A stretch of 35,100 nt of DNA from Pseudomonadota bacterium (lineage in GTDB: Bacteria; Pseudomonadota; Gammaproteobacteria; Burkholderiales; Sulfuriferulaceae). The notes beneath the pieces are model-generated. The model was not told the origin of the DNA and did not search any database. It worked only from the letters and a program-made list of their open reading frames with translations. The DNA lies in contig JAJYMO010000070.1 of the NCBI GenBank assembly GCA_021786845.1, forward strand, positions 1-35,100. The letters are read 5' to 3'. A program made the translations under genes and the position numbers. Positions within the stretch are counted from its first letter, which is position 1. Each line of letters starts with the position of its first letter. Positions 20,435 to 32,646 of the stretch are shown here, piece after piece.

Positions 20435-20618
20435 GGCCAACAGCCTCCCCTGCCTCGCCGGGGAGAGGGTTGGGGTGAAGGTCCAATAGCCTCCCTCGCC
20501 CCACTGGGGAGAAGGTTGGGGTGAGGGTCCAATAGCCTCCCTCGCCCCACTGGGGAGAGGGTTGGGGTGAGGGTCCAATAGCCTCCCTCGCCCCACTGGG
20601 GAGAGGGTTGGGGTGAGG
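20435..20618. repeat. four-copy 46-bp tandem palindromic repeat (PHPNPLP-type)
   Basis: Units start at 20435, 20481, 20527 and 20573, exactly 46 bases apart. The first is diverged and the other three are nearly identical. Each carries the palindromic core CCTCGCCCCACTGGGGAGAGGG followed by TTGGGGTGAGGGTCC. On the minus strand the open frame reads PHPNPLPSGARE, the signature of a widespread proteobacterial intergenic repeat. The frame through it is not a gene. There are no unique spacers, so it is not a CRISPR array. Single copies of the same core flank the DUF559 nuclease at 31652-31687 and 32067-32104. Confidence 0.9.
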
Positions 20619-20666
20619 GGTCAACTGTTCTGATTTAATACCGGTGAGTTTGTGAGGAAACCCCAA

Positions 20667-30799: not shown

Positions 30800-32107
30800 A
30801 TGATTGACACGCATTGCCATCTAGATGCCTCCGAATTTGACGCTGACCGCGATGCGGTGGTGGCGCGCGCTTTACAGGCAGGTTTGACTGGCATCATCGT
30901 CCCGGCAGTGACTGCCAACAACTTCGGCGCCGTGCGTGAAGTGTGTGCTCACCACCCACAATGTTTCCCTGCTTTAGGTCTGCACCCCGTGTATGCCATG
31001 CAACACCAGGAAGGCGATCTGGTGACGCTGAAAGTCGCCATACAAGACGAGTCAGTGGTGGCAATCGGCGAAATTGGTCTGGATGCCTGGGACAAAAGCG
31101 TGGGCCTTGAACGCCAAAAACACTTCTTCGCCGCGCAACTCAAGTTGGCGCGCGACAGGGATCTACCCGTACTGCTGCATGCGCGCCACGCCGTAGACGA
31201 GGTGACAGGCATGCTACGGCGTTTCGGTGTGCGTCGAGGTATTGTCCATGCATTCAACGGCAGTCGGCAACAAGCCGACAAACTCATCAATATGGGATTT
31301 AAACTGGGATTTGGCGGCGCAATGACCTACCCGCGGGCACTCAACCTGCGTCGCCTGGCGGCACAATTACCCCTTGAATCGCTGGTATTGGAAACTGACG
31401 CGCCAGATATGAGCCCAGTTTGGGCACATGGTCAACGCAACCTGCCCGAATACCTGCCCGGAATTGCGAAAGAAATTGCTGCGTTGCGTGAGATCACGCC
31501 AAAGGCCCTGATTGCAGCATGTATCGCCAATACTGATGAGGTATTCGGCCCCACACACGGGGAAAAGTCAATTTTCACCCGGCCGCCCCAAAAACCTGGG
31601 ACTGCTTTTCCATCTCCCTCGATCCAGAAACTCGTGACTGCTTTTCCATCTCCCTCGCCCCTCCGGGGAGAGGGCCGGGGTGAGGGGAAAACCCACAAAA
31701 CCACTCGTACCAAATCAGAGCAATTAGCAATATTAGCCACCTTCGCCAAACAGATGCGCCTGGCCCCCACAGAAGCCGAAGCGAGGCTATGGTATTTTTT
31801 ACGCAACCGAAGGCTAAATAACCGGAAATTTCGTCGTCAACATTCAATCGACAAGTATATTATTGATTTTATTTGCATAGATGCACGATTAGTCATTGAG
31901 TTAGATGGTGGACAGCATACAGACATCATGACTCACCAAAATGACGTGGCACGAACGGTATTTTTGGAAAAATGTGGTTTGCGCGTACTCCGATTTTGGA
32001 ATGATGAGGTATTGCAACAAACAGGGGCTGTGCTGGAACGAATTTTGAGGGCGCTGGATACCGAAACTCCTCACCCCAACCCTCTCACCAAAGGGGAGAG
32101 GAGGTAA
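30800..32107 (+). CDS. TatD-family hydrolase fused in frame to a DUF559 (Vsr-like) endonuclease domain
   Basis: This 435-residue frame carries two unrelated parts. Residues 1-254 are a complete TatD-type metal-dependent hydrolase: THCHLD (H5, H7), GEIGLD, LLHARHA, VHAFNGS and ETDAPDMSP. TatD proteins normally end near here. A Ser/Pro-rich linker follows (about 255-300; PSPSPLRGEGRGEG) that is translated palindromic repeat. Residues about 310-420 are a DUF559 domain: LAPTEAEARLWYFLR, KYIIDFICIDARLVIELDGG, EKCGLRVLRFWNDEV. DUF559 resembles very-short-patch-repair nucleases. The frame ends in translated repeat (PHPNPLTKGERR). The ATG at 30800 has GGAG upstream. I see no stop between the two parts, so the fusion is real in this sequence. 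An internal ATG at 31754 could give a separate nuclease. Confidence 0.85.
   Translation: MIDTHCHLDASEFDADRDAVVARALQAGLTGIIVPAVTANNFGAVREVCAHHPQCFPALGLHPVYAMQHQEGDLVTLKVAIQDESVVAIGEIGLDAWDKSVGLERQKHFFAAQLKLARDRDLPVLLHARHAVDEVTGMLRRFGVRRGIVHAFNGSRQQADKLINMGFKLGFGGAMTYPRALNLRRLAAQLPLESLVLETDAPDMSPVWAHGQRNLPEYLPGIAKEIAALREITPKALIAACIANTDEVFGPTHGEKSIFTRPPQKPGTAFPSPSIQKLVTAFPSPSPLRGEGRGEGKTHKTTRTKSEQLAILATFAKQMRLAPTEAEARLWYFLRNRRLNNRKFRRQHSIDKYIIDFICIDARLVIELDGGQHTDIMTHQNDVARTVFLEKCGLRVLRFWNDEVLQQTGAVLERILRALDTETPHPNPLTKGERR
31601..31657 (+). repeat. two direct copies of a 21-22-base unit, 36-bp period
   Basis: ACTGCTTTTCCATCTCCCTC occurs from 31601 and again from 31637, 36 bases apart. The second copy runs straight into the palindromic core at 31652-31687. 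It is the linker of the TatD-DUF559 frame (TAFPSPS twice). Confidence 0.85.
31652..31687 (+). repeat. left copy of the PHPNPLP-type palindromic repeat beside DUF559
   Basis: The sequence starts CCCTCGCCCCTCCGGGGAGA and continues with GGGCCGGGGTGAGGGG. It matches the array unit at 20481-20618 apart from a few changes in the loop and TT to CC. It is the left boundary of the DUF559 segment. Confidence 0.85.
32067..32104 (-). repeat. right, inverted copy of the PHPNPLP-type palindromic repeat beside DUF559
   Basis: On the minus strand it reads CCTCTCCCCTTTGGTGAGAG, then GGTTGGGGTGAGG. It is the inverse orientation of the copy at 31652-31687. It supplies the last codons of the fused frame, and the TAA at 32105-32107 lies directly after it. 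Confidence 0.85.
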
Positions 32108-32151: not shown

Positions 32152-32646
32152 ATGACAAAGAACCCCTTACCCCTACATTTACGCCCACGCACTTTATTTC
32201 CACCTCCTTTGGTGTATGCAGCGGGCCTGTTTCTAGGCTGGCGAATACAACGCCATTCACCTTGGGGATTCACGCTTCCTGCAACGGGCTATGCGCTGGC
32301 CTGGGGCATATTGGCAATCAGTCTGCTCTTGATGCTGTGGGCAGTATTGACAATTTGGTGGCACCGTACCACAGTGAATCCTTATCGTGGCGCTTCCAGT
32401 TTAGTGACTACCGGACCGTTTGCATTGAGCCGCAACCCGATTTATTTGGCTGATATGCTCGCCTATATGGCGATCAGCGCTTTAATGGGCAGTTGGTGGC
32501 CCTTGTGTTTTGTACCCGCCGTCTGGGCCATTATGCGCTATCGCGTCATTCAGCACGAAGAAGCTCATTTAAGCGCCAAATTTGGTGTGGCATATGTACA
32601 ATACTGTACTCGCGTGCACCGCTGGTTAGGAAATAACAGAGGTTAA
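32152..32646 (+). CDS. isoprenylcysteine carboxyl methyltransferase-like membrane protein
   Basis: A 164-residue membrane protein of the ICMT/PEMT-type methyltransferase family. It has about four hydrophobic segments and the family motif TTGPFALSRNPIYLADML, where the NPIY region contacts S-adenosylmethionine. The second motif (HEEAHLSAKFGVAYVQYCTR) contains the conserved EE and ends VHRWLG. The methyl acceptor is unknown in bacteria. The gene begins 45 bases after the DUF559 repeat and has a weak ribosome-binding site. Confidence 0.82.
   Translation: MTKNPLPLHLRPRTLFPPPLVYAAGLFLGWRIQRHSPWGFTLPATGYALAWGILAISLLLMLWAVLTIWWHRTTVNPYRGASSLVTTGPFALSRNPIYLADMLAYMAISALMGSWWPLCFVPAVWAIMRYRVIQHEEAHLSAKFGVAYVQYCTRVHRWLGNNRG

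Follow-up and report, generated by a model that had tools for sequence, protein, structure and literature searches.

The roughly 0.5-0.6 kb between tatD and a methyltransferase-like gene in the window, by which we mean the whole 35,100-nt stretch analysed here, is probably a mobile element (we put this at about 0.6), in which a DUF559 gene stands alone between two REP-like units whose G-rich tails point inward. DUF559, a domain of unknown function, is common, and, to our knowledge, G-rich REP-like palindromes are found in many genomes without a known source. The first-pass annotation had proposed a mobile nuclease module at this place, an idea now largely supported by the recurrence of the layout in other genomes, by empty sites in relatives and by near-identical copies; as to mechanism, we infer that the DUF559 nuclease is the likely mobiliser of the repeats and of the cassette.

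The fused frame and its repeats in the window

The ORF at 30800-32107 is a single unbroken frame of 435 aa. Residues 2-250 match the complete TatD_DNase profile of Pfam (1-253 of 253), and residues 313-419 match nearly all of DUF559 (PF04480; profile 4-108 of 109) with 127.5 bits against a curated cut-off of 20.6 (E 2.5e-37), so that a whole TatD is indeed followed by DUF559 in one frame, as first annotated. Other Pfam matches over the nuclease are of nuclease type or unknown function only. The whole-genome scan found one DUF559 in the window's genome, and Pfam matched DUF559 alone, and no known transposase, between the window repeats. The features are as follows, G034 being a congeneric genome with the same fusion.

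20437..20619, + strand: tandem array of the same repeat, without the nuclease (4.0 copies of 46 bp)
30800..31555, + strand: tatD, the host gene part, residues 1-252 (Pfam TatD_DNase; dN/dS 0.13 against G034; gene ends in 11 relatives)
31556..31651, + strand: linker, a remnant of the TatD tail plus a 34-nt direct duplication (31588-31621 / 31624-31657)
31652..31687, + strand: upstream repeat unit, CCCTCGCCCC-TCC-GGGGAGAGGG-CC-GGGGTGAGGGG, G-rich tail toward the nuclease
31736..32056, + strand: DUF559 nuclease domain, residues 313-419, Vsr/EDxHD fold (Pfam, genome scan, AlphaFold2, Foldseek, dN/dS)
32068..32104, - strand: downstream repeat unit, tail toward the nuclease; codes for the C-terminus PHPNPLTKGERR and ends directly before the stop
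32105..32107, + strand: stop codon of the fused frame
32152..32646, + strand: phospholipid/isoprenylcysteine methyltransferase-like gene (Pfam PEMT, 9.5e-12)

DUF559 had been described as lying between inverted copies of one repeat, and it does: the arms at 31653-31685 and 32069-32101 are 33 nt long and 82% complementary, within palindromic units of about 36 nt. Each unit has a C-rich arm followed by a G-rich one and, two bases on, by a tail that is G-rich too. We regard it as a three-segment unit, because the C-rich 5' arm has two possible pairing partners, the adjoining G-rich arm and the tail. With up to three mismatches, the unit pattern GGGAGAGGGNNGGGGTGAGGG has six matches in the window, and 0 of 100 shuffles have any, while the unit core at the same tolerance has 10 matches in the whole genome (five of them exact) against 5 for the reversed control. 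Taken alone, the upstream unit shows no folding advantage over its shuffles (z -0.51); the advantage is moderate for the downstream unit (z -2.21) and for one array unit (z -1.87). Neither a GTAG nor a CGTC tag is present in the units at 31652-31687 and 32068-32104 or in the four array units. The reading of the TatD-DUF559 linker as a translated palindrome holds for 31652-31687 but not for the TatD-tail-like stretch and the 34-nt direct duplication. The nuclease-free array, previously placed at 20435-20618, was confirmed at 20437-20619; G034 has a single degenerate unit at the orthologous place, and the array therefore probably grew by tandem copying. The window's genome also has the remnant of a unit, in frame, within a gmd-like (GDP-mannose dehydratase-like) gene (L009 ~1490-1550; G000:C24:10845-10865); the congener G226 lacks it.

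Relatives supply the uninserted state. tatD is present in 18 of 18 genus genomes searched (nine of the 18, G579-G587, were searched for tatD only, without a DUF559 search), and among these congeners the TatD-DUF559 fusion is found in the window genome and G034 only, 435 aa long in both. At the 16 unfused loci the open frame measures 206-331 aa, with two frames truncated close to a contig end. Eleven of these loci could be read to the stop (no start motif was found in L275, L276, L279 and L287, and L286 runs off its contig), and in all 11 relatives tatD stops at residues 252-262, so the anticipated empty-site homologues stopping near residue 254 do exist. In L273, L274 and L278, the gene next to tatD is the same methyltransferase-like gene, with a start that overlaps the tatD stop or abuts it; since its start is at the tatD stop in relatives, this gene marks the right side of the insertion. 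The G034 fusion also carries the repeats, and the same fusion without repeats, which would speak against a mobile module, was not seen, G034 being the only other relative with the fusion. Between the window genome and G034, dN/dS is 0.13 for TatD, 0.75 for linker residues 253-304 and 0.22 for DUF559 residues 305-424. Purifying selection thus acts on TatD and DUF559, and the linker is nearly free, and on these substitution ratios the window nuclease looks like a functioning gene rather than debris.

AlphaFold2 models the window nuclease confidently (pLDDT 89.8) as one domain of 128 residues. The best folds in Foldseek are 3hrl (NGO0050) and then 3r3p (the homing endonuclease I-Bth0305I, E 2.2e-4), with Vsr (1cw0) as the fifth match (E 5.3e-3), and sequence profiles give 3hrl at 5.9e-40 and 3r3p at 2.4e-5. 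W32, F45, Q48, E68, D70, G71, H74, D83, R86 and G94 (alignment numbering) are invariant in 40 sequences including that of the window, and E68, D70 and H74 are the putative catalytic residues. Neither the model nor the Pfam matches contain an extra DNA-binding region tethered to the nuclease, and the Vsr profile PF03852 has no match in the window protein or anywhere in its own genome. The suggested likeness to Vsr therefore stands for the fold but not for the repeats, which the tested Vsr genes lack (0/27). A DUF559 gene has already been assigned to EDxHD in a paper whose available part mentions no palindrome or inverted repeat (PMC9403480), and the Caulobacter DUF559 protein VsrA is read as a Vsr-like repair enzyme in the accessible part of another (PMC12907096). 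A defence-gene reading was also considered and set aside, as PADLOC gave only one weak match, with DpdF (E 1.1e-5 across 50 residues).

Inverted flanks and dispersed repeats in other genomes

To compare flanks with no motif presupposed, the 250 bp upstream of each DUF559 gene was aligned with the reverse complement of the 250 bp downstream. DUF559 matches occur in 128 of 300 genomes of the order sample, from which 107 of the best listed matches plus the window gave 108 loci, 107 of them testable (the flank of L029 was too short); three listed matches above 80 bits were left out, two as partial and one for a stop. The phylum sample (108 of 299 genomes with a match) contributed 68 loci, hand-picked from the listed matches and mostly top-ranked, and the named-genome set comprised the best 80 of 566 matches, with flanks too short in L241 and L245. 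L204 was dropped from this last set for an N run that gave a false repeat, changing 57/78 to 56/77 and 51/78 to 50/77. An inverted score of at least 18 was reached at 65 of 107 loci in the order sample against 2 of 97 in the distal control (68/107 above all 100 shuffles) and at 48 of 68 in the phylum sample against 1 of 66 (50/68 above all shuffles); in the named genomes 56/77 reached at least 18 and 50/77 at least 22, against 21/586 and 1/586 in shifted controls. Because the loci are mostly best-scoring matches, these fractions apply to strong DUF559 members. As a further control, 30 Vsr loci were taken, three of which were skipped as short or offset, and 0/27 reached even a score of 18. Direct matches of at least 18 are also present at 45/107 order and 34/68 phylum loci, a frequency due in part to the palindromic nature of the units and to their occurrence in arrays.

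The pooled sets, which overlap in a few loci, gave 256 loci, reduced to 249 by removal of identical DUF559 DNA and to 248 without L204. By a structural definition, tail-bearing units lie on both sides of DUF559 at 110 of these 248 distinct loci against 1 of 474 in the control, and both tails point inward at 89 of the 110. Inverted repeats thus border DUF559 genes above chance in three samples and in the structural test; flanking elsewhere is far above controls, although 111/248 loci, short-flank loci included, have no clear pair scoring at least 22. The repeat types that border DUF559 genes differ widely from one genome to the next. Cassettes are common in the sampled Pseudomonadota, and there are also loci from genomes named Nitrospira, Desulfobacterales, Methylomirabilota and Binatia. 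By eye, some units at L165, L177 and L178 of the phylum sample seem to include an additional small hairpin, lying between the main one and the G-rich tail. Units in Rhizobium resemble RIME elements, and we claim no identity.

Repeats and nuclease also go together at the level of whole genomes. A generic repeat core, GARGGYNRGGRTGRGG, was counted in the 300 order genomes with the reversed pattern as control, which never exceeded 3. At least four core matches were found in 56 of the 84 genomes whose DUF559 match is strong (E <= 1e-20) against 23 of the 216 others (Fisher p 1.4e-21); the remaining 28/84 have fewer than four matches to the generic pattern, and some of them have other repeat types. 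Stratification gave an odds ratio of 14.8 for DUF559 given the Y1 transposase and 1.6 for Y1 given DUF559, the crude odds ratio of Y1 with repeats being 2.9, a weak association, and Y1 (PF01797) has 0 matches in the window's draft genome. Within the window's genus, as represented in the order sample, repeats are found in the two fusion genomes only (8 and 7 matches, against 0 in the other seven). Moreover, nuclease similarity correlates with repeat similarity over 137 clear-repeat loci (0.269; permutation sd 0.050, reached in 0/1000), 91 pairs with homologous flanks having been left out; family structure is only partly removed in this co-variation test and in the association of repeats with DUF559. 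The highest counts among the 300 order genomes are 569 core matches in G157 and 414 in G118. The one strong DUF559 of G157 is divergent and lacks such a unit nearby, despite the 569 pattern matches.

Copies at unrelated sites and inside host proteins

Signs of movement come from genome G217. Its three cassettes are 94.9-99.7% identical over 588-612 aligned nt in unrelated flanks with no match outside, and a fourth copy (L368 559-929; G217:C1:91000-92300) keeps both ends with the nuclease middle deleted, as a MITE-like derivative. Solo units of about 38 nt lie in flanks that, by eye, look unrelated. At bioA there is a filled/empty pair: a solo unit (L309 ~1474-1533) marks the place where the G217 gene has 63 extra nt, in frame, and the gene of the congener G277 is uninterrupted. 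Seven G217 sites were compared with G277: two are empty (L309 and L327), three show a pattern match inside the matching stretches or in the sequence separating them, and two are unmatched. The bioA pair has at most an ambiguous GCC as target-site duplication, and no clean target-site duplication was seen. Two stretches of G217 (L370 726-957 and 2754-2869) hold clusters of repeat units resembling mosaic arrays. In the same genome, two other inward pairs border not DUF559 but a transposase-like fragment and a dnaX-like stretch, both named by eye. Only 38 of 72,556 plasmid records match DUF559, which is therefore mainly chromosomal. Plasmids of Picosynechococcus PCC 7003 and 7002 carry it.

Fusion to a host protein is not peculiar to tatD. 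Among the 248 loci, 41 have at least 150 open codons upstream, 35 at least 60 downstream and 22 at least 60 on both sides. At 55 loci DUF559 has a long frame on one side or the other, and 34 of these were scanned with Pfam; a known host family stands beside DUF559 in 25 of these 34 frames and none in 9, bearing in mind that GC-rich DNA can contain long open frames that are not real genes. The hosts, named here after their Pfam domains, include YgiQ-like radical SAM, AsnB, PriA, MnmG, MetG and HsdS proteins with the host family on both sides of DUF559, and a LipB-like protein with it in two stretches beside DUF559. The host family is upstream only in, for example, HsdM, DnaG and another LipB-like protein, and downstream only in, for example, RimM, PrmC, MiaA, MurB, MeaB and CbiG. 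The linkers between host and DUF559 read as translated repeat units in the cases inspected. Insertions recur at or near one place in MetG, YgiQ-like, AsnB and MnmG proteins, and nucleases in the same host are usually each other's nearest neighbours, with the LipB pair and a third HsdM insertion (L138) as exceptions; in the HsdS pair, the nucleases are 68% identical and the host parts 39% and 32%. No intein splicing (Hint) domain was found in the 34 scanned frames or in the window protein, and no intron or intein was seen around DUF559.

A proposed mechanism, its rivals and known systems

The co-variation of nuclease and palindrome, the inward ends and the copies of both solo units and whole cassettes lead us to propose a REP/RAYT-like economy with a different enzyme. 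DUF559 would bind the unit belonging to it, probably in the form of a single-strand hairpin or of paired ends, and would nick or cut there with a Vsr/EDxHD-type active site; repair would then place further copies at new sites, either of the unit, which yields solo repeats and arrays, or of the entire cassette. Units poor in stop codons would let the cassette land in frame, so that host protein and nuclease are translated together; at the window insertion the tatD stop was lost, and TatD and DUF559 are one frame. Solo repeats may be the non-autonomous form, standing to DUF559 as REPs do to RAYTs, but with an unrelated enzyme. Whether DUF559 cassettes form a separate and widespread class of bacterial mobile element is a more tentative matter, to which we give slightly less than even odds: its sole gene would be a Vsr/EDxHD-type nuclease acting on hairpin repeats, and with no transposase, integrase or reverse transcriptase it would seed REP-like palindromes by the thousand across genomes and write itself in frame into essential proteins.

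The strongest rival reading is homing, which we consider unlikely, in which DUF559, free-standing or in frame, would cleave conserved genes at alleles that lack the insert and be spread through repair of the resulting double-strand break, with the repeats serving only as flexible linkers or recombination handles. The homology in sequence and fold to I-Bth0305I points in this direction, as do the recurrent insertion places in MetG, YgiQ-like, AsnB and MnmG proteins and an HsdS pair whose nucleases are far closer than their hosts. The grouping of most same-host insertions by nuclease fits homing and fits vertical descent too, but the LipB pair and L138 depart from it, and homing leaves unexplained the dispersed solo repeats, their co-variation with the nuclease and the three near-identical cassettes at unrelated places in G217. 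The nuclease might instead be cargo, moved in trans by another transposase through the inverted repeats as MITEs or RAYT/REP elements are; elements of that sort typically have inverted terminal repeats and REP-like units, and Y1 is weakly associated with the repeats. Nevertheless, this is improbable, since in a test that covered Y1 transposases the association is carried by DUF559, the window genome has no Y1 match, and the repeats around this cargo differ greatly in type from genome to genome. We reject RAYT as the main mover on the stratified odds ratios and that missing match.

The reading of Caulobacter VsrA as a repair enzyme, in the accessible part of PMC12907096, would suit a host nuclease that controls or repairs repeats, in Vsr-like repair or defence, and is sited among them by chance. 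We hold this to be very unlikely: inverted inward-facing units, near-identical copies in unrelated flanks and in-frame insertions are traits of mobile elements, and the tested Vsr genes have no inverted flanks. That GC-rich palindromes flank the gene by accident or artefact is hardly credible. The poor folding of the upstream unit and the modest genome excess of 10 over 5 at three mismatches would agree with chance, against which stand controls of 1/586 and 1/474 and a pattern found in 0/100 window shuffles. DUF559 as the mobile and mobilising component, acting on its own repeats, remains our preferred reading.

If so, the link of DUF559 to these repeats offers a candidate enzyme for a large repeat class, and the spread of untagged REPs becomes testable with one small protein. 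A package of gene and repeats, found between genes and in frame inside genes of many bacteria, suggests a little-noticed mobile DNA with a small nuclease as its only gene, one that repeatedly joins housekeeping proteins (MetG, PriA, AsnB, MnmG). For annotation, PHPNPLP-type peptide stretches can be translated repeats. The assignment of DUF559 to the EDxHD relatives (PMC9403480) and in-frame palindromes in Rickettsia (PMC10969869) are already in print, in the parts of these papers available to us; the literature searched, from which most subscription papers and bioRxiv were absent, yielded no report that connects DUF559 with in-frame insertion or with repeats at its borders. The CGTC-tagged REPs are said in the available part of PMC3733652 to have no dedicated transposase; the window units are not CGTC-tagged, and we do not claim that case as solved. 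DUF559 as the missing enzyme of those REPs was considered and dropped, Rhodopseudomonas palustris L237 and other loci viewed by eye having CCTCTCCCC-type hairpins with GGGTGAGG tails rather than CGTC.

Several known systems share part of this design. Terminal inverted repeats are common to MITEs, insertion sequences and DUF559 cassettes, that of the window having no known transposase, and inteins likewise place a nuclease inside a host protein, but no splicing domain was found in the scanned DUF559 frames. Rickettsia palindromic elements also lie in frame in protein genes; these are inserts of about 150 bp for which the accessible part of the source (PMC10969869) names no nuclease, whereas DUF559 palindromes border a nuclease gene. 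Vsr (1cw0) shares the fold, and its tested loci lack inverted repeats (0/27). The EDxHD homing endonuclease I-Bth0305I (3r3p), judging from the part of the review PMC3943268 at hand, resembles DUF559 in having a homologous catalytic domain and in lying in conserved genes; DUF559 differs in being about 110 aa long, with no added DNA-binding region, and in being bordered by palindromes that also disperse alone. A close parallel in arrangement is REP/RAYT, whose REPtrons (Di Nocera 2013, PMC3733652, as far as accessible) have dispersed short palindromes, single, paired or arrayed, with a gene between inverted units. The RAYT enzyme is an HUH Y1 transposase and its REPs carry a GTAG tag, whereas the DUF559 enzyme is a PD-(D/E)XK-type nuclease and its units carry a G-rich tail; both have an enzyme gene flanked by its own repeats, with copies of these repeats dispersed in the genome.
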